From Candidatus Heimdallarchaeota archaeon (GTDB taxonomy: Archaea > Asgardarchaeota > Heimdallarchaeia > Heimdallarchaeales > Heimdallarchaeaceae): a stretch of DNA of 43,319 bases. The position numbers and the translations under genes are program-made. Where the stretch lies: positions 1 through 43,319 of the forward strand of contig JAUWJS010000008.1 of the NCBI GenBank assembly GCA_030607575.1. Direction: 5' to 3'. Of the stretch, positions 21,422 to 31,717 are shown in pieces (position 1 is the stretch's first letter; the number at the start of each line of letters is the position of its first letter). Below the pieces are notes generated by a model. The model searched no databases. It saw only the letters and a list, made by a program, of their open reading frames with translations, and was not told where the DNA came from.

Positions 21422-24022
21422 TCATTGTTCCTTTAAGTAATAATCAGGAGATGTTACAAATCTATTTTCATCTTCAGCATCTCCTACTTCAAAGTCAGTG
21501 TAAATTTCTTCCATAATCTCCTTATCACTTATATCCGCCAATATTTTGCGCTTATCAACTGAAATAATTCTGCTTAATTCTATGGTTTTTGGGTTGAATT
21601 TTTCCATCGTTTCTTTCATTTGGGTGAGATTTTCGATTTTACCTATGAGATTCATAAAGGTCATTACAATATCAGGTCTGAGTGCAACTTGTGGAGCTAT
21701 ACTCAATTGTTTGCCTATAGAAATAGCTAAGTTATCAATGAAATTCTGATCTTTTTCAAATAGTGAAGCTGGACGATCACTGATGAAAGATGCAATTAAT
21801 AATAAATCAATTGATGTCCATAAATAGAGGAAGGGTTTTTCCATTAGTTGTAAATTATATACAATACCTATTTCTGTGCCTTTTACATTTTCAACTACTT
21901 TACCTTCTAAATCAAAAATTTCATTTAACTCAAATGAAGGAGCACCGTAACTAACCTGAATCATATTACCAATTTGTCTAACATTGCCCATTGAATATAA
22001 CGAAAATTTAGAATTTTCTACTCTTTCAGGAAGAATTCCTGATTTTTTCTCAATCAAAATCCTTTTCAACATTTCAATGTCATCTATTTCATCCTCAGTT
22101 CTGTCGTATTCTTGTGCAAAATCTTCTAGAATCTTTTTCTTTTTATCTCGAAGAGATATCTTAGATCGAGTAATGAGGGGCTGGTTGAAAACATCATAAA
22201 AGAAATCATAAATTATTCCGAAAAGACCAGCAGATACTTTTTTCTTCTCTACAACAAGGAAGTATCCTTTCATAGGATGATATATGACAGAATGAGCTTT
22301 ACCGATTGCTTTTCCAAAAACATTTCTTGCAGAAACATCTTTATTTTCAGTAATTTCATCATTGATTATGTTGCTTTCTGCTGGATTGAAATAAGGAAGT
22401 ACATCACCATTTTGGATAATGTCTTGACTTTTTATTCTCATTTCTCTTGCCTTTTTCTCTATTTTCTCGATGGGAACAAATAGATAATTTTGAGATTGAA
22501 GAATTATTTCAATTATTTCATCAGTTAATACTAAACCCTTAATCTTGCAGTATTCTATAATCGCTTCTGGTATTAAATATGTAAAAGGCATTTGTGGTAT
22601 ATTTTTAGGTAGCTCATTTAGCAAAAATTCTTTTTTCTCTTTTTCATTTTCCAGTTCATATTCTCCACTAATTGGCATTACGATATTGTCGTAAATTCTT
22701 CTGACCATAGAGAGAGATAGCTCTTGTTGTTGTCTTAAAATTATACCAAATTTCTCATTCAGTTGTCCAGGACCGACCACAAAACCAACTAAATCTTTAT
22801 GTTCATCAATAACAGGTTTACCAGAATATCTCCAAAGTGCTTTAAGTTCTGATAACAGCTGATAATCTATTTCCCTACTTGATGCACTAGTTGCAACTGT
22901 TAGTTGATTGCGAAATTGTAGAGCACTAATAATTTCACTATATTTTTGAATACGATTTTCTGTCTCAAGTGTTAGATCTTTGAAGTAAGGAGTTATTATT
23001 TCTTGAAACTGTAGATGATCTCCATAAATTACATCCAAGGCATCCAAATCTGTTGCGTAATCGTTAATATCTTCATCTAATAGCTCTTCATAAATTTCGA
23101 GCTGTTTGATTTTTCTGATTAATTCATTAATTTGAGTTTCAGAAATTTCATCTATGTTGTTCTCCTTGAAAATTCTAAAATTCTCCTTTTCCTGTTGAAT
23201 AATAACCTTCCATCTTAGAGTATCTTGAGCTGCTTTTCGGAGAATGGGTCGATGTCTTAACACTCTTTCATTAATATCATAAATTATTCCCTTCAATTCC
23301 TTTTTATCAGTAACAAGACGTCTTAACCTATTGATGTTTTCACTCAATTCATTGTTAAAAAGGAGAAAATTATTGTGAGTGTTTTTGTATAAATGTTCTG
23401 TGCTAACAGAAAATAATAGCTCAGATAATTTGTAAAAGTGTTGAAAGATTTTATTTTGCTTAGCTTCAACTTCATTCTTTTTTCCCATATATTCCTGGTC
23501 ATTAATTATACCAGACACATAATCTTGCTCTAAGATCATTTCCTCTTCAAATATTTTTGTGGCGGCTTTAATAGCCATACTCATAACATATCTTACTTTT
23601 AATTCTTCAATTTCAATGGGAGGAATTTCTTCAAGCTCAATAATGGGAATCTCAATCGCTTTAGTGATTTCAACTTCAGTTGGTACAAACACTTCTTCTG
23701 TCTTAATTTGAGGTTCACCAGTTACTGTTTCAGTTTCAGTTTCAGTTACTGCTTCAGTTTCAGCTGGTATTGATAATTCCCCTATCTGAATTTGATGTAT
23801 GTCTTGTTCAACTTCAGGTAATTTTTGTTTAGTTTCTTCTAGCTCTTTCTTTTCTTCATCTGCAGTAATAGTTTTTGGAAGATTTGCTAGAAGTTCCTTA
23901 TATTTGTTTTTTAAAGTTTGATAGGTTCTTCTATCAATTGAGCCACGGATGTAACGTAAATCTAAATCTCTAATAAATCGGAGAATTCGTCTTCTCTTAA
24001 CGTTTAATTCATCGTCTAACAT
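21422..24022 (-). CDS. Large 866-aa protein with coiled coils and PRC-barrel-like segments
   Basis: I do not recognise a named family. The layout is as follows. Residues 1-50 are basic and helical (RRRILRFIRDLDLRYIRGSI). Residues ~55-150 are acidic and low in complexity, with a TETETETV run. Residues ~150-400 are mostly long helices likely to form coiled coils. After that come three separate segments that look like PRC-barrel beta motifs: about 405 (GKPVIDEHKDLVGFVVGP), 566 (NVFGKAIGKAHSVIYHP) and 702 (FDLEGKVVENVKGTEIGIV). There is no signal peptide; a short hydrophobic stretch (YLWTSIDLLLIASFI) is probably buried rather than a membrane span. It diverges from the profilin-like gene across 153 bp. 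It may be a structural or scaffold protein, which is inference. Confidence 0.75.
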   Translation of the reverse strand: MLDDELNVKRRRILRFIRDLDLRYIRGSIDRRTYQTLKNKYKELLANLPKTITADEEKKELEETKQKLPEVEQDIHQIQIGELSIPAETEAVTETETETVTGEPQIKTEEVFVPTEVEITKAIEIPIIELEEIPPIEIEELKVRYVMSMAIKAATKIFEEEMILEQDYVSGIINDQEYMGKKNEVEAKQNKIFQHFYKLSELLFSVSTEHLYKNTHNNFLLFNNELSENINRLRRLVTDKKELKGIIYDINERVLRHRPILRKAAQDTLRWKVIIQQEKENFRIFKENNIDEISETQINELIRKIKQLEIYEELLDEDINDYATDLDALDVIYGDHLQFQEIITPYFKDLTLETENRIQKYSEIISALQFRNQLTVATSASSREIDYQLLSELKALWRYSGKPVIDEHKDLVGFVVGPGQLNEKFGIILRQQQELSLSMVRRIYDNIVMPISGEYELENEKEKKEFLLNELPKNIPQMPFTYLIPEAIIEYCKIKGLVLTDEIIEIILQSQNYLFVPIEKIEKKAREMRIKSQDIIQNGDVLPYFNPAESNIINDEITENKDVSARNVFGKAIGKAHSVIYHPMKGYFLVVEKKKVSAGLFGIIYDFFYDVFNQPLITRSKISLRDKKKKILEDFAQEYDRTEDEIDDIEMLKRILIEKKSGILPERVENSKFSLYSMGNVRQIGNMIQVSYGAPSFELNEIFDLEGKVVENVKGTEIGIVYNLQLMEKPFLYLWTSIDLLLIASFISDRPASLFEKDQNFIDNLAISIGKQLSIAPQVALRPDIVMTFMNLIGKIENLTQMKETMEKFNPKTIELSRIISVDKRKILADISDKEIMEEIYTDFEVGDAEDENRFVTSPDYYLKEQ

Positions 24023-24175: not shown

Positions 24176-24535
24176 ATGAGTTTTCAAGACGATGTTGCAG
24201 TAGCTGCTCAAGAAGGAACCGTTGGAGTGGTTTGGTTAATTGGGGATGATTTGAAATGTTATTATCAATATGGGGACTGGGCAGTTGATCCCACAATACC
24301 TTTCGATTCTTGGAAAAATCAAAAACCAAGCGTTGATTTTGGTGGAGGTTTGAAATTTACAGTGATTACAATGTCTCCTGAGAGATTAATCTCAACCAAC
24401 ATGGGTGGTCAAGGACATTTAATTGTTGCCCGGTGTCCAAAATGGGCGGGTTGTGTAATTTCTTGGTGTCCATCCACTATACAGAAAGATATAGCTTATG
24501 CTACTACAGCAAGACTTGCAGCCAAAGTAGCTTGA
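24176..24535 (+). CDS. Profilin-like protein (candidate Asgard profilin)
   Basis: A 119-aa protein of the right length for profilin, an actin-monomer-binding regulator of filament growth. The match by eye runs the full length. MSFQDDV resembles the MSWQ-type N-terminal helix. TVGVVWLIGDDLKCYYQYGDW fits strands 1-2, which carry a G-D-x-x-W-type turn in eukaryotic profilins. A helix containing IPFDSW comes next, then GGLKFTVI like the profilin GxKFM block. The loop and strands GGQGHLIVARCP and GCVISWCPST follow, and finally IQKDIAYATTARLAAKVA like the C-terminal helix preceded by P-T-V-Q. Roadblock/LC7 folds share a beta-beta-alpha ending and are the main alternative. Actin binding is inferred; no actin gene is in the window. 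The gene has a GGTGA site and diverges from the 866-aa gene. Confidence 0.68.
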   Translation: MSFQDDVAVAAQEGTVGVVWLIGDDLKCYYQYGDWAVDPTIPFDSWKNQKPSVDFGGGLKFTVITMSPERLISTNMGGQGHLIVARCPKWAGCVISWCPSTIQKDIAYATTARLAAKVA

Positions 24536-24557
24536 TAAGGATACAATTGGTGTTTTT

Positions 24558-24860
24558 TTGTTTTCACATCCATCTATTGAAATTAGGAACGATAAACTCT
24601 TTTTATCAGTTAGAGTTCATCCCAAATCTTCAGTAAATAGGATTGATGTTTCTGATTTTTCTATAGATGTCTATGTTAAGGAAATAGCAGATAAAGGTAA
24701 AGCAAATAGATCAGTATTAAGTTATTTAGCTAAAACATACAAAATTCCCTCCTCTTCTATTTCTATCTCTCGAGGGTTAAAGTCAAGAAATAAAATAGTT
24801 GTAATAAAGGATCAGAATAATGACTTACTTCTGAAAAAAATAATTGGAAAGCATATTTAG
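24558..24860 (+). CDS. DUF167 (YggU/UPF0235) family protein
   Basis: A 100-aa protein with the DUF167 pattern: a strand block LFLSVRVHPKSSVNRI, then IDVYVKEIADKGKANRSVLSYLAKTYKI, where GKAN is the family hallmark, then SISISRGLKSRNKIVVI. The function of this widespread small family is not established. No ATG is available; the first usable codon is TTG 24558, just after the profilin-like stop, so it is probably cotranscribed with that gene. Its last 4 bp overlap the convergent gene at 24857. Confidence 0.85.
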   Translation: MFSHPSIEIRNDKLFLSVRVHPKSSVNRIDVSDFSIDVYVKEIADKGKANRSVLSYLAKTYKIPSSSISISRGLKSRNKIVVIKDQNNDLLLKKIIGKHI

Positions 24861-25445: not shown

Positions 25446-27209
25446 CTATTGCTTTAAATATATTGTGCGTATTTCATCATTTGTAGTGGCTTGTTCTGGA
25501 GCTTTGTCATATACAGTCCTTCCTGTAAATCTAGGAAATCTTAACGCCAAACCGTCCATGTCATTTTCTAATAACCCTCTTGAACATGTGTGCATTTGAC
25601 TTCTGGTTATTTCATCTCCTGTTACCTCAATAACTATCTTAGGGTCAAACCAGATACTGCTTTCAATGTCACTTTGATATTCTTTAGGTTTCCCACTTTC
25701 AAGAGGTTTGAGTTCTTTAAAGAAAAATGCAAGATCCTCATCAGAGAATCCTGTTCCAATTTTAGTAAACGTTTGATAGACGCCCTCAATCTGATCATAA
25801 CACCCTAGTAGGAATGTTCCATATTTTCCTGCACGTTTTCCCTTTCCATATTCTGCTCCAAGTATCACTAAATCAAAAGAATCAGATAATTTTGCATCGT
25901 ATCCTGCCTTATATTTTACCCAATTCCAACCCCGAGCTCCAGCTTGATACACCGAATCTTTTCCAATACTTTTCCCCATAATTCCTTCACAACTATCTTG
26001 GAGTGCTTGATGGAAGAAATTATCTATTTCATCTGAGTTGTCAGCAATTGTTTGATGGGAAAACTTGACGTTATTAGTTTCTCTAACCATATTCTGTAGA
26101 TTCTCTCTCCTTTCAATATAACTAAAGTCTAATCTAGAAGTGTTATTACTGAAGAGAACATCAAAAAGAATAACTCTAACAGGAATTTCTCGTATCTTTT
26201 GATCTATATCATGTTTTCTTTTTCTCTGGGAAACATACTGAAAAGGTAAAATAGCTTCTTTTTCGTGGTCATATGCAACTATTTCTCCTTCTATAATAAA
26301 CTCCTTTTCTAGAGAAGCATTGTTAATGAAATCAATTACATCAGGAAATTGTTTTGTTATATTTTCAGTACTTCTTGAAAACAATTTCACTTTATTCTCT
26401 TTTTTGTGAATTTGAACTCTTAAGCCATCATATTTATACTCTAGAGCGCATTTTCCATTGAACCTTTCAAGTAATTCTTCTGAGCTTGATACTCTTTGTG
26501 CTAGCATTACTTTAATAGGACTGAATACCTTAACTTCAATTTCCTTGACAGCATCAAGACCCTCTTTATACAGAACAGATGAAACATAATCTATATCTGA
26601 ACATTTGTTGTAAGCTCTTTCCAAAAACAGCTTATTTTCTCTTGATCCAGTTTTCGCCTTTGAAAGCGCTTCAAGCAATAATTGTACTGCAACACCTGTT
26701 CTCAAATTTCCTGCAACCAATCTAGAGATGTATCTTGCTTCCAGAGATGTAACTTTAGATAATAAACCAGATAGGATTCTAATTTTCTTATCTACTGAAC
26801 CTTCACCAGAAGTTTGAGAAATTGTATCAAGAATTTTCCAAACATCCACCACATCATATTCTTCAGTCTCTGGAAGATTTGTGAAAGCTAATAGTGTCGA
26901 TTGTGATTTACTATCTAGAAGCTTGTGTGCTGTTTTGCCTAAATCTCCTATTTCTTCAAAAAAACTTAGAATATTTTTCTCACTCTTACCGGTTGCTAAA
27001 GCTAGAGCTTTGATTGCCATTTTTTCTGCAAGCATTAATTCGATTCCAACAAAATCTGGATAAAGCTTACCTAGAGTTAAGAGAGAAATTTTACCTATTT
27101 CACCCCCATCTGATTTGGATAAAGTATTAGCTAAGATATCAACCATTTCTAGTTTCTTTTGTGTATTCTCTAATTTAAAATAACACTCACATAAATCTTT
27201 AAACCTCAC
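25446..27209 (-). CDS. lig: ATP-dependent DNA ligase, archaeal LIG1-like
   Basis: Seals nicks in replication and repair by an AMP-lysine intermediate. At 587 aa it has the usual archaeal size. An N-terminal DNA-binding domain spans ~1-225. The nucleotidyltransferase domain carries motif I EYKYDGLRVQ (Lys259), EFIIEGEIVAYD (motif III), EGIMGKSIGKDSVY (motif IV region) and WVKYKAGY (motif V). The OB domain follows with FDLVILGAEYGKGKRAG. It starts with GTG 27209 (VRFKDLCECYFKLE), fitting the M-R-[YF] opening of archaeal relatives; no in-frame ATG is near. It sits 16 bp after the GIFT-like gene and is followed by a small helical protein, so it is the middle gene of an operon. Confidence 0.95.
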   Translation of the reverse strand: MRFKDLCECYFKLENTQKKLEMVDILANTLSKSDGGEIGKISLLTLGKLYPDFVGIELMLAEKMAIKALALATGKSEKNILSFFEEIGDLGKTAHKLLDSKSQSTLLAFTNLPETEEYDVVDVWKILDTISQTSGEGSVDKKIRILSGLLSKVTSLEARYISRLVAGNLRTGVAVQLLLEALSKAKTGSRENKLFLERAYNKCSDIDYVSSVLYKEGLDAVKEIEVKVFSPIKVMLAQRVSSSEELLERFNGKCALEYKYDGLRVQIHKKENKVKLFSRSTENITKQFPDVIDFINNASLEKEFIIEGEIVAYDHEKEAILPFQYVSQRKRKHDIDQKIREIPVRVILFDVLFSNNTSRLDFSYIERRENLQNMVRETNNVKFSHQTIADNSDEIDNFFHQALQDSCEGIMGKSIGKDSVYQAGARGWNWVKYKAGYDAKLSDSFDLVILGAEYGKGKRAGKYGTFLLGCYDQIEGVYQTFTKIGTGFSDEDLAFFFKELKPLESGKPKEYQSDIESSIWFDPKIVIEVTGDEITRSQMHTCSRGLLENDMDGLALRFPRFTGRTVYDKAPEQATTNDEIRTIYLKQ

Positions 27210-27225
27210 CTTTATCAGACCTAAG

Positions 27226-28617
27226 TTATCTTTTCTTGCCTTTTTGCTCTTTCATTTCCAGAACAATTTCACTAATCAAATGAATAAGATTTGCACTTAA
27301 AACATCAAGACTATTTTTAAGTTCTCGAACAGCTTGAGTAAGATCATCAATCTTTTGCATTTGTTCTGCAGGTTGAACTTTCTGCACTTCTGTATCTACT
27401 TGTAACTCTTGATCAAAAATCATGAGATCTTTCTCAAATTGATCCATTTCAGGAGTTCTAGGTTCTGGTATTGAAGTAATGTCACCTTTAATTACAGATT
27501 TAGCAGTTTTCTTGCGTTTTTCCTTCTTACTTTTATCGCGTTCTTCTTTTTCACGAATTCTTTCCAAATAAGGTAGGATTTGTGCGTAATCAACTCCTTC
27601 TCTGCGAGCCATATCTGTCAAGAGAATGTCACGATATCCAGGATCTTCGATTTTCAATTCATCTATATCTTTCTCTAATTCCTGAATTATTGCAATTGCT
27701 TCGTAAACATTTTTGTGAGGAGTTTTTACTTCTGGTTCTCTTTCAACAGTTTTTGTGTCTCTAACTTCTTCTTTTAATGATTTCATAGCTTTTATAACTT
27801 CAGCCTTGACTGTATCGGTTTCTCCTTCAGAGAGAACTTCCTTAACCATATCAAGTTTACTCACAGATTCAAAAGATTTTTCTATAGTTTTTTCTTTGAT
27901 ATCTATATCTTCTTCAGCTTCTTCTGCAAGTTCTTCATCTTGTTTTGTAAATGTTGGGGGAACTGATACATATTTAAATAGGTTTTTAGCAAAATTGGAA
28001 TTATCTCTTAATTCAATTCCTGATTTGGAATCAGATAACAAAAGGTATGAACCACATACAAAAACTGTTCCTAAACCATAAGAAGATATACACATAACAG
28101 CAGAACTAGGTGGATCGCTTGTTTTTTTTGTCCTAACTAGTTCCTCTACTCCTTCTTTGAGATGCAAGGAGCAACTGGAAACCATTGTTATTTCACTAAG
28201 ACCTTCAGTAATTGGGTGATTATAGAATTTTGAAACAATTACATTGCTTTCTAATTCTAAATCAAAGCTATGGTAATCAAAAATTTGATTAGCTACAATT
28301 TCTACATTAAAATGTTTGAGCAGTGTGTTCAGATTAGTATTTAATCCCTTATCTCCTCCTGCATTAGAGAAAATTGCTAGTGCTCCACCCTCATCAACAA
28401 ATCTTAGCAATGCTTTAACTTCATGCCCCATAATCTTTGAACCATCAGGACACAAGAAGACAAAGATGTCAAATTTGGAAATGTTTGAATATTTTATAGG
28501 ATATGAATCATGTTTACTTATTTCATGTCCTTCTCCTTCAAGTATGTTTGCTAGTTTCTGAAAATTCTCAAAAATTTTTCCTCTCTCTTTTTGAGTTTCA
28601 TCGAAAAGTATTTTCAT
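27226..28617 (-). CDS. GIFT-domain-like protein (IFT52/GldG-type N-terminus) with charged C-terminal region
   Basis: A 463-aa soluble protein. Residues 1-~225 resemble the GIFT domain found in the intraflagellar-transport protein IFT52 and in bacterial GldG-like proteins: ILFDETQKERG at the start, ALLRFVDEGGALAIFSNAGG, LNTNLNTLLKHFNVEI, and GTVFVCGSYLLLSD before the domain end. IFT52 has a matching D-x-GG, then DTNINFLLEEYGI, then a G-S-x-x-x-x-S-D segment. The remainder (~230-463) is acidic and basic, with long helices (IQELEKDIDELKIEDPGYRD, LPYLERIREKEERDKSKKEKR) and a C-terminal helix ending in KGKKR. The start is ATG 28617. It leads an operon with DNA ligase and a small helical protein. 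Identity by eye only; a related class I glutaminase-like fold is the alternative. Confidence 0.6.
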   Translation of the reverse strand: MKILFDETQKERGKIFENFQKLANILEGEGHEISKHDSYPIKYSNISKFDIFVFLCPDGSKIMGHEVKALLRFVDEGGALAIFSNAGGDKGLNTNLNTLLKHFNVEIVANQIFDYHSFDLELESNVIVSKFYNHPITEGLSEITMVSSCSLHLKEGVEELVRTKKTSDPPSSAVMCISSYGLGTVFVCGSYLLLSDSKSGIELRDNSNFAKNLFKYVSVPPTFTKQDEELAEEAEEDIDIKEKTIEKSFESVSKLDMVKEVLSEGETDTVKAEVIKAMKSLKEEVRDTKTVEREPEVKTPHKNVYEAIAIIQELEKDIDELKIEDPGYRDILLTDMARREGVDYAQILPYLERIREKEERDKSKKEKRKKTAKSVIKGDITSIPEPRTPEMDQFEKDLMIFDQELQVDTEVQKVQPAEQMQKIDDLTQAVRELKNSLDVLSANLIHLISEIVLEMKEQKGKKR

Positions 28618-28818: not shown

Positions 28819-29673
28819 ATGTCTAGTAGTGATTTTGGAAAACTTAAGGAAATGGCTTCAGCCAGATTGGACATAGTAATTCTTCATTCTCAAAAAGGTG
28901 GACCAGGTAAAACAACTCTATCATGTAATATGGCACATGAACTTGCTAAAAGAGGGAATAAAACCATTTTAATAGACTTAGATATAGCACAACCAACAAT
29001 TCAGCACATCTTTAAAATTCCAGATAAGAAGATCAAACATACCATAAATGATATTCTTATGGGAAAAAAGAAAGTCAGTGAAGATGTAGTTCTTAAGACA
29101 AAGTATCCTAATTTGCATCTAATTGTTGCAAAGGAAAATGTCGAGTATGGTGAAGGTTTGCTTTCACTTCTTGAAGACATTCAACAGTATTCTTTCTTTG
29201 CTCTACATGAAATGACCAAATTTCTCAAAAGAATGGGATTTAGATACGTTGTTTATGATTTAGCTCCTGGTTACAGAATGGAGTCAGTTAATGCTGCGGC
29301 TATAGCAGATGCTAGAATTTTTGTAATCAGACCTTCCACTTTCAGCTTTGAAGGAGCAAAACAGATGTTAAGAGACATCTACAAAAAATTAGACATAAGA
29401 TCTCTTAGCTTCTTCGTATTTAATCAATTACCCCCAAAATTGAAAGATGAAAGTCAGAAATTATTGGAAGATTGGAAAGACGAACTTATAAAAATCTATA
29501 AACCAGATAAAATCACTTTTCTAGATTTCTTGCCAATATCATTCGATGTCATGGAACAGGGGATAAAAGGAGAGTATATCTTTCCTGAAGATTCAATTCT
29601 TTATGAAAAGCTATCTGAAATGGTAGACAAAGTAATTCAAAATATAGACGAAATGAAGAAAAATAGGGCTTAA
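28819..29673 (+). CDS. MinD/ParA-family P-loop ATPase
   Basis: A 284-aa deviant-Walker ATPase. The P-loop is HSQKGGPGKTTLS, with signature Lys26 and Lys31. Switch regions are LIDLDIAQPT and VVYDLAPGYRMESVNAAAIADARIFV. A C-terminal helix (IFPEDSILYEKLSEMVDKVIQ) could be membrane- or partner-binding but is not a clear MinD membrane-targeting sequence. Members position proteins or DNA, or load metal clusters. No ParB, MinC or iron-sulfur scaffold lies next to it, so the role is open. The ATG is preceded by GGTGA at 4 nt. The next two genes on the strand encode paired zinc-ribbon membrane proteins. Confidence 0.88.
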   Translation: MSSSDFGKLKEMASARLDIVILHSQKGGPGKTTLSCNMAHELAKRGNKTILIDLDIAQPTIQHIFKIPDKKIKHTINDILMGKKKVSEDVVLKTKYPNLHLIVAKENVEYGEGLLSLLEDIQQYSFFALHEMTKFLKRMGFRYVVYDLAPGYRMESVNAAAIADARIFVIRPSTFSFEGAKQMLRDIYKKLDIRSLSFFVFNQLPPKLKDESQKLLEDWKDELIKIYKPDKITFLDFLPISFDVMEQGIKGEYIFPEDSILYEKLSEMVDKVIQNIDEMKKNRA

Positions 29674-29745: not shown

Positions 29746-30729
29746 ATGAGCCTAATCAAGAAATTTCAATGTCCTCATTGCAATGCTCCGATGGATGTTA
29801 ATCCTGAGGACGCAATCTTTAACTGTGTATCTTGTGGACAAGCAGTTCTAGCGGATGGATCTAAATTTGATAATCATCACATCCTAAGGAATACGCTCAA
29901 CCAGAAAAAAATACACAATATTGTGAAGGAGTTTATTAGGAAAAAAGGGTTCATGAGGGGAATTAAAGGTTACAAGATTACAAACATTACCCCAACATTG
30001 ATGCCTTTTTGGGTTGTAACTTCTGATGCGTATACCCATTTTGTAGGATACCTCAGATATACAGAAACAAGAACTAGAACAGTAGGTACTGGAAAAAATA
30101 GACGAACGGTAACTGAAAGCGTTACAGTCTACAGACCAATCGACAGAGAAATAAGAGAAAAGCGTGCAGATGTTTTACTTGGGAGGAGAGGAAGTTCTAT
30201 TTTTGGATATGATAGAATAAAAGATATCGTGAGAGCAGAGTTTCCAAATGCAGTTCCATTTAACCATGATCAATTACTGGCTGATGAGAAAGAATTTAAC
30301 TATCTTTCATCAGAAATAGATTTAGAAGCAGCAAATCAGCTAGGTAAAACTATTGTTTTTGACAATCATAGAGCTCAAGCAGAGAGAGCGTGCACTAAAG
30401 TTTTCGACTGCGCTACACAATTAACTTACACTGGTACTTATTTCTTACATGCTCCAGTTTGGCAGATAGAATATGAGTTCAAAGGAGAAACCTACAGAAT
30501 GGCTATTTTAGGTAGTTCTGGGAAAATAATAATAGGAGAAATTCCCGTTACAACAGTTTTCAGAATTATTTTTCTCTCGCTAACTGTACTAATTCTAGGA
30601 GGAGCTGGAGTTTTGAGTTACTTCTTCCAAACTTTAGTTTATGTGCCAATAATAGCGGGAATTGTTGCAGCAGCGGTAGGATTCTTCACGCTTAAGAATA
30701 CCTTCAAACCTAAATCGGTGGTTGACTAA
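29746..30729 (+). CDS. Zinc-ribbon membrane protein, first of a paralogous pair
   Basis: A 327-aa protein. Residues 9-32 form a rubredoxin-like zinc ribbon (CPHCNAP and CVSCGQA). A soluble middle domain of about 230 residues contains LMPFWVVTSDAY, TETRTRTVGTGKNRR, and DREIREKRADVLLGRRGSSIFGYDRI. Two transmembrane helices close the protein (~268-290 and ~295-317). The same layout recurs in the next gene, so the two are paralogs. The R/T-rich hairpin after a W-V-V-T-S-D-A-Y strand resembles bacterial zinc-ribbon proteins of unknown role. The start is ATG 29746, 72 bp after the MinD-like gene. Confidence 0.7.
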   Translation: MSLIKKFQCPHCNAPMDVNPEDAIFNCVSCGQAVLADGSKFDNHHILRNTLNQKKIHNIVKEFIRKKGFMRGIKGYKITNITPTLMPFWVVTSDAYTHFVGYLRYTETRTRTVGTGKNRRTVTESVTVYRPIDREIREKRADVLLGRRGSSIFGYDRIKDIVRAEFPNAVPFNHDQLLADEKEFNYLSSEIDLEAANQLGKTIVFDNHRAQAERACTKVFDCATQLTYTGTYFLHAPVWQIEYEFKGETYRMAILGSSGKIIIGEIPVTTVFRIIFLSLTVLILGGAGVLSYFFQTLVYVPIIAGIVAAAVGFFTLKNTFKPKSVVD

Positions 30730-30730
30730 A

Positions 30731-31717
30731 ATGAATGTAAGATCAATAATGTGCCCAAATTGTGCTGCTCCTTTAGAATTAGAAGCTACACAATCTCATG
30801 TTACATGTCCATATTGTTCTGTAACAAGTGAACTGAAGAAAGTAACTGATCTGATTGAACATTATATGTTACCTGTTGTTTATGATGTTGAGCAAATTAG
30901 AACTGAACTTGTAGGTGACATACTTAAATATCCAGGTGCTCCTGAAGATTTGCATAAATCATTAAAAATTACTAAATTGGACTTAAAATTTTACCCCTAT
31001 TTCATTGTAACCGTTCACCTTCGAACAGAATACAAAGGAAATGGTGAATATGCTACATTTAGCAATCGATACAAATCCGGATATAGACATATCAGTACTC
31101 ATCTGAAACCTGAACAAGGAGTATTTGATGATACTAGAGAGTTCATAATATATGCAGCTGAAGATGCAATACATGATTTAATCAACTTTGAAATATCCAC
31201 AAGAGGTAAAAGGTACTTCCAAGCACTCGAGGCGGAGAAAGTTAAGGCAGATGTAGTTCCTAGTATTTTCGATTTAGATCAAGCTAAGAATGAAGCTACA
31301 CACTCAATGAGAGAAATCCATAAAGGACTGATGCTCAAAGAATTAGCTCAAATTCTTGAAGTTAGAGATCAACCAGAAATAAAAGGTGTATATTTGTTAC
31401 ACATTCCATTTTATTTCATTGAATTTGAAGCAGCGGGAAATAAGCATAATGCTATATTAGATGGAGCAACAGGTAGGACTGTACTAACAGATGTACCTCG
31501 CGAAACATCCTACTGGATACAAGTTGGATTTCTAACTACTATCTTTGCAGCTGTAGGATTAGCAGGAATTTATTTAGCTGTTCAGAGTATTCTATTTTAT
31601 TTTGGAATTTTCGGTGCAATCGCTGGTCTCATTCTTGCTGGTAGAACATTACAACTTGGGCTTAAATCTAGACATAGAGAAACACAAAGGTCAAAGAAAA
31701 GGAGATTCAAGAGATAA
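30731..31717 (+). CDS. Zinc-ribbon membrane protein, second of a paralogous pair
   Basis: About 328 aa, with a layout parallel to the preceding gene: N-terminal zinc ribbon (CPNCAAP and CPYCSV), a middle domain with DLKFYPYFIVTVHLRTEY, VYLLHIPFYFIEFEAAG and NAILDGATGRT, then two transmembrane helices and a strongly basic tail ending RSKKRRFKR. The paired YLLHIPFYFIEFE here and YFLHAPVWQIEYEF in the first protein show the duplication best. The track starts at TTG 30722, but ATG 30731 one base after the upstream stop codon is more natural and implies translational coupling. They probably form a heteromeric membrane complex (inference). Confidence 0.72.
   Translation: MNVRSIMCPNCAAPLELEATQSHVTCPYCSVTSELKKVTDLIEHYMLPVVYDVEQIRTELVGDILKYPGAPEDLHKSLKITKLDLKFYPYFIVTVHLRTEYKGNGEYATFSNRYKSGYRHISTHLKPEQGVFDDTREFIIYAAEDAIHDLINFEISTRGKRYFQALEAEKVKADVVPSIFDLDQAKNEATHSMREIHKGLMLKELAQILEVRDQPEIKGVYLLHIPFYFIEFEAAGNKHNAILDGATGRTVLTDVPRETSYWIQVGFLTTIFAAVGLAGIYLAVQSILFYFGIFGAIAGLILAGRTLQLGLKSRHRETQRSKKRRFKR

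Follow-up and report, generated by a model that had tools for sequence, protein, structure and literature searches.

The window, a stretch of 43,319 nucleotides of DNA from a Candidatus Heimdallarchaeota archaeon of the family Heimdallarchaeaceae (contig JAUWJS010000008.1), contains a gene for a GIFT-domain protein which, in this lineage, heads a tight same-strand block whose other members encode an ATP-dependent DNA ligase and p188, a small helical protein (Table 1). The open reading frame had been reported in a first-pass annotation made from the sequence alone, and is real at the coordinates given there, lying on the minus strand, which that annotation had left unstated. The spacing to the ligase had been given as 16 bp and this agrees with the measured gap of 16 nt between the end of the GIFT gene and the ligase start, a GTG at position 27209. 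The ~240 C-terminal residues of the GIFT protein consist of a linker and helices that are absent from IFT52, and homolog comparison showed that this tail varies among the Asgard classes.

p188 keeps its place next to the ligase also in genomes that lack the GIFT gene there, and has an invariant W78 together with a conserved Y-x-x-S/T-T-F-F-like motif. Pfam and PDB sequence searches with p188 gave no meaningful match, and a fold search gave no match under 0.001. The 866-aa protein is found family-wide in the same block and is without a Pfam or NCBIfam match. On the other side, the ParA/MinD-type ATPase gene is divergent from the GIFT gene and is kept there in two of the three genera of the family, but is not beside the GIFT gene in Heimdallarchaeum. 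Beyond it, the two proteins with zinc-ribbon-like N-termini are related to each other and are conserved beside the GIFT block.

Table 1. Positions of the features discussed, numbered from the first letter of the window except where L063 is given.
Feature	Position	Strand	Remarks
GIFT-domain protein, cytosolic, 463 aa	27226..28617	(-)	By eye, lacks a signal peptide and transmembrane segments
GIFT domain, residues 1-220	27958..28617	(-)	AlphaFold confidence ~96 pLDDT
Linker, residues 221-300, mostly disordered, low-confidence	27718..27957	(-)	pLDDT block means mostly 39-74
Helical module, residues 301-376	27490..27717	(-)	Conservation confined to Heimdallarchaeaceae (AlphaFold model, homolog comparison)
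Long C-terminal helix, residues 416-462	27232..27372	(-)	AlphaFold model
ATP-dependent DNA ligase	25446..27209	(-)	Pfam finds the N-terminal, adenylation and C-terminal domains
p188, predicted four-helix protein, 188 aa	24857..25423	(-)	Starts 22 nt after ligase
Profilin-like gene and small DUF167-like gene	24176-24860		Both by eye; profilin-like gene 24176-24535
866-aa protein	21422-24022		
ParA/MinD-type ATPase	28819-29673		
Two mutually related proteins	29746-31717		By eye, with membrane helices and N-termini resembling zinc ribbons
Second GIFT protein of the source genome (G000:C40), 678 aa	L063 5760-7796		By eye, has a signal peptide and a membrane helix at the C-terminus

Relationship of the domain to IFT52

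The GIFT domain was defined by Beatson and Ponting in 2004 from GldG, IFT52 and Wbp1, as cited in a passage of PMC7226087. The motifs by which the domain had been recognised in the window protein, D-x-G-G, (N/D)TN(L/I)N-x-LL and G-S-x-x-x-x-S-D, are present as D75-E-G-G78, N93-T-N-L-N-T-L-L100 and G189-S-Y-L-L-L-S-D196, and the extent first estimated, ~225 residues, is right for the domain, which takes up residues 1-220. The protein matched the Pfam family IFT52_GIFT (PF23355) over residues 3-111 with 37.8 bits (E=1.4e-9), the curated cut-off being 27.2 bits, and so did all 41 of the aligned diverse Asgard members (best E=1.3e-28). By this score and by its fold the window protein belongs to the GIFT superfamily. 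Matches to the GldG-type family ABC_transp_aux (PF09822, 23.6 bits) and to ThuA (PF06283, 22.5 bits) were weak and below their cut-offs, both falling well under the IFT52_GIFT score.

Since the Pfam model might include archaeal seeds, a profile (A2) was built from 36 Asgard homolog sequences only and run against the PDB. It matched Chlamydomonas IFT52 (1.1e-26 and 5.2e-26) and its mouse homolog (3.7e-22) across the domain, and nothing besides IFT52 was found below 0.1, the next match having E=0.11. A Foldseek search of the PDB with the AlphaFold model also placed the N-domain of IFT52 first (E=1.9e-19, TM to target 0.81-0.90), with ThuA-like (1.2e-10) and OST48 (2.3e-10) structures as runners-up and GH42 beta-galactosidase domains also present after IFT52 and OST48. 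An assignment to GATase1/ThuA was rejected since it ranks under IFT52 in Pfam and in searches of the PDB by sequence and by fold, and neither of the rivals named in the first-pass annotation, a GATase or a Rossmann family, gave a better match than IFT52. Among solved structures, the closest detectable relationship of the window GIFT domain is with that of IFT52, and we regard it as nearly certain that the two are homologous. The Pfam score, the PDB sequence match and the fold together give the original GIFT/IFT52 assignment strong support.

When IFT52 was aligned to the Asgard profile, the residues common to both were E11, P57, K61, E66, GG77-78, GG87-88, N95, P169, G183, GS189-190 and F/L194. 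A further set, D6, R12, C56, D114, H134, C149 and Y191, is near-invariant in the Asgard orthologs and is not kept by IFT52, while Asgard D89 is E in IFT52. Of these residues D6, D89, D114, H134 and C149 are common in the Asgard paralogs too. In Rossmann-like folds the ligand pockets follow the core strands. The core strands of the AlphaFold model are residues 2-6, 51-55, 79-83, 143-146 and 183-188, and the near-invariant polar residues come after them. From this conservation and the position at strand ends, we infer that the near-invariant residues mark a putative ligand pocket that would be mostly lost in IFT52.

Distribution

GIFT domains of the IFT52_GIFT kind are nearly pan-Asgard, being matched in 188 of 196 Asgard genomes, often several times in each, and in none of 14 control genomes. 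Strict orthologs of the window protein, defined by a score of over 250 bits, were found in 31 of 55 sampled Asgard genomes, nearly always as a single copy; two genomes (G145 and G186) have two copies each, and none was found in the sampled members of f3, f4 and f5, which are families of the window protein's own class. Outside the Asgard archaea the coverage consisted of the 14 control genomes and a scan of 84,980 GTDB species for the N-terminal pattern FDx[TS][QH][KN]ERG[RKN], which gave 74 confirmed loci. The organisms named for these loci are all Asgard (Heimdall-, Wukong-, Sif-, Thor-, Hel-, Jord-, Frey-, Sigyn- and Lokiarchaea), with one locus titled "Asgard group archaeon" and two only "archaeon". 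Since the signature favours lineages with that N-terminus, the GTDB locus counts represent an uneven sample of the Asgard archaea. A search of plasmids for GIFT relatives found none.

Gene context

The ligase gene directly adjoins the GIFT gene in all 21 intact Heimdall, Wukong and Sif loci from GTDB and is on the same strand in 20 of them, with start-minus-end distances of 4-136 nt; in Sifarchaeum the two genes are head-to-head. The lineages concerned are Heimdallarchaeaceae, a second Heimdall family (f6), Wukongarchaeum and Sifarchaeum, and in the tree the orthologs with this linkage group together in a single clade with support of 95/88. Furthermore, a diverged GIFT gene adjoins the ligase and p188 genes in two f2 genomes (G037 and G021). 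The linkage noted in the first-pass annotation is thus conserved in Heimdall-, Wukong- and Sifarchaea but does not extend to other Asgard classes, where PolB or a sugar nucleotidyltransferase is found instead. In families f3 and f4 the ligase-p188 pair is kept without the GIFT gene, which means that the ligase does not need the GIFT protein. A divergent GIFT gene in family f22 (L198, G025:C87) lies one gene from a second, divergent DNA ligase, and this arrangement is possibly an independent GIFT-ligase pairing.

In 41 GTDB loci a gene for a family-B DNA polymerase (PolB), usually with a PCC-domain gene, is found within 2-3 genes of the ortholog; these lineages are Thor, Jord, Frey, Sigyn and f11. 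An NDP-sugar pyrophosphorylase adjoins the ortholog in Loki (f8), f10 and f23, putative glycosyltransferases are near the Thor orthologs (all of these named by eye), and the neighbours of the Hel orthologs are small-GTPase or coiled-coil genes. Across the loci examined, the gene is mostly found among DNA-replication neighbours. There are accordingly two kinds of replication context (ligase and PolB) alongside one sugar context (NDP-sugar pyrophosphorylase), and since the context is not uniform, with sugar genes in Loki, f10 and f23 and GTPase or coiled-coil genes in Hel, a role with DNA may not be ancestral. Within the conserved Heimdall block none of the genes was recognised as a sugar gene, and no DNA-binding domain was detected in the GIFT protein. 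At three loci from Hel and some other Asgard (L102, L191 and L088) the ortholog adjoins, by eye, a small GTPase gene and possible roadblock-like genes, which may be due to chance because such genes abound in these genomes.

Discussion

The components of intraflagellar transport (IFT) are usually seen as eukaryotic inventions. The window protein resembles the N-terminal GIFT domain of IFT52 (PDB 5fmr, 5fms and 8bd7) in sequence (1e-26 to 4e-22) and in fold (1.9e-19), and both proteins are cytosolic. IFT52 differs in having its own C-terminal domain and the partner IFT46, neither of which was found in Asgard. The IFT52 C-terminal domain (PF21178, Itf52_C), which pairs with IFT46, had no Pfam match in the window protein, and across 196 Asgard genomes no match to it passed the cut-off; IFT46 (PF12317) was likewise over its cut-off in none of the 196. 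With both absent, the window protein was ruled out as an IFT subunit. In the tree, IFT52 joined divergent, long-branched paralogs in a weak placement (80-87 bootstrap), and its grouping with the orthologs was not rejected (p-AU 0.32); for both results IFT52 was represented by just two sequences, which came from PDB alignments and one of which has a gap. Of the bearing on IFT origin that had been claimed for this protein, the GIFT domain and its nearness to IFT52 therefore stand, but the rest does not, given the missing IFT parts and the unreliable placement of IFT52. It could still be argued that Asgard archaea have a primitive transport train, IFT-like or cytoskeletal, of which the protein is a part, since a GIFT domain followed by a disordered linker and a C-terminal helical part recalls the layout of IFT52 and a profilin-like gene (by eye) is nearby. 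We consider this very unlikely: neither IFT46 nor the IFT52 C-terminal domain is matched, the tails are unlike between Asgard classes, and GIFT domains are present in nearly all Asgard genomes whereas only ~1% are reported to have tubulins (PMC13394414).

The fold in common with the GIFT domain of OST48/WBP1 (OST48_N, 2.3e-10) raises the question of whether the protein is the archaeal WBP1/OST48 subunit of oligosaccharyltransferase, itself a GIFT carrier. Weak matches to OST48_N in 11 of 41 homologs would be in keeping with this, as would the report of WBP1/Ost48 in Heimdallarchaeia by Eme et al. 2023, which does not mention IFT (PMC10307638). OST48 is, however, secreted and membrane-anchored, whereas the window protein lacks an OST48_N match at E<1 and, by eye, any signal peptide or membrane anchor, and its relatives carry separate secreted, membrane-anchored OST48_N proteins. 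This identity is hardly credible and was rejected. The source genome has a second GIFT copy, G000:C40, which unlike the window protein looks secreted and membrane-anchored, and which has other neighbours.

The main rival to a role with DNA is that the protein binds or modifies a sugar or nucleotide-sugar, the ligase and PolB neighbours being incidental housekeeping synteny. GIFT was first proposed as a sugar-binding domain, ThuA-like and GH42 beta-galactosidase domains follow IFT52 and OST48 among the fold matches, and there are the NDP-sugar pyrophosphorylase beside the Loki, f10 and f23 orthologs and the glycosyltransferases near those of Thor. This reading is plausible but on balance unlikely, since the GIFT gene directly adjoins the ligase in every intact Heimdall, Wukong and Sif locus, PolB is close by in Thor, Jord, Frey, Sigyn and f11, and the conserved Heimdall block is without a recognised sugar gene. 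We tentatively prefer a ligand-binding GIFT scaffold or adaptor whose linker and helical tail recruit partners and which is used in replication or repair in the window lineage, although this could well prove wrong. On this proposal, the cytosolic Asgard protein would consist of a GIFT domain, probably ligand-binding, joined through a flexible linker to a helical tail that varies with lineage. The GIFT domain would bind a small ligand, a sugar or nucleotide-like compound, or else a modified partner, while the tail would recruit other proteins so that the whole may act as an adaptor or scaffold. In Heimdallarchaeia, going by gene context, it would serve DNA replication or repair together with the ligase. 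IFT52 may have been derived from a GIFT domain of this Asgard type, retaining the fold as a scaffold and losing the pocket.

In the open-access literature we found no report of a GIFT/IFT52-like family in Asgard archaea, subscription papers and preprints being largely outside the scope of that search. A near-universal Asgard family nearest to the GIFT domain of IFT52, with its pocket apparently intact, provides a testable ancestor for one part of IFT. Since the other IFT parts tested are absent and the neighbours are mostly replication genes, the family may show what this domain did before cilia, and the conserved replication-enzyme neighbours make it a concrete candidate for an unrecognised replication-associated Asgard protein. 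It seems improbable to us that IFT52 inherited its GIFT domain from this cytosolic Asgard family and that the family originally served in DNA replication or repair; if true, ciliary transport would owe one of its core scaffolds to a ligand-binding protein linked to replication.

The profilin-like gene and the small DUF167-like gene adjoin p188 and the ligase in the window. At E<1 the former is without a Pfam match; a profilin-like gene is also found near the ligase in genomes of Jordarchaeia, f11 and f10, so that the ligase-profilin neighbourhood may be old in Asgard.
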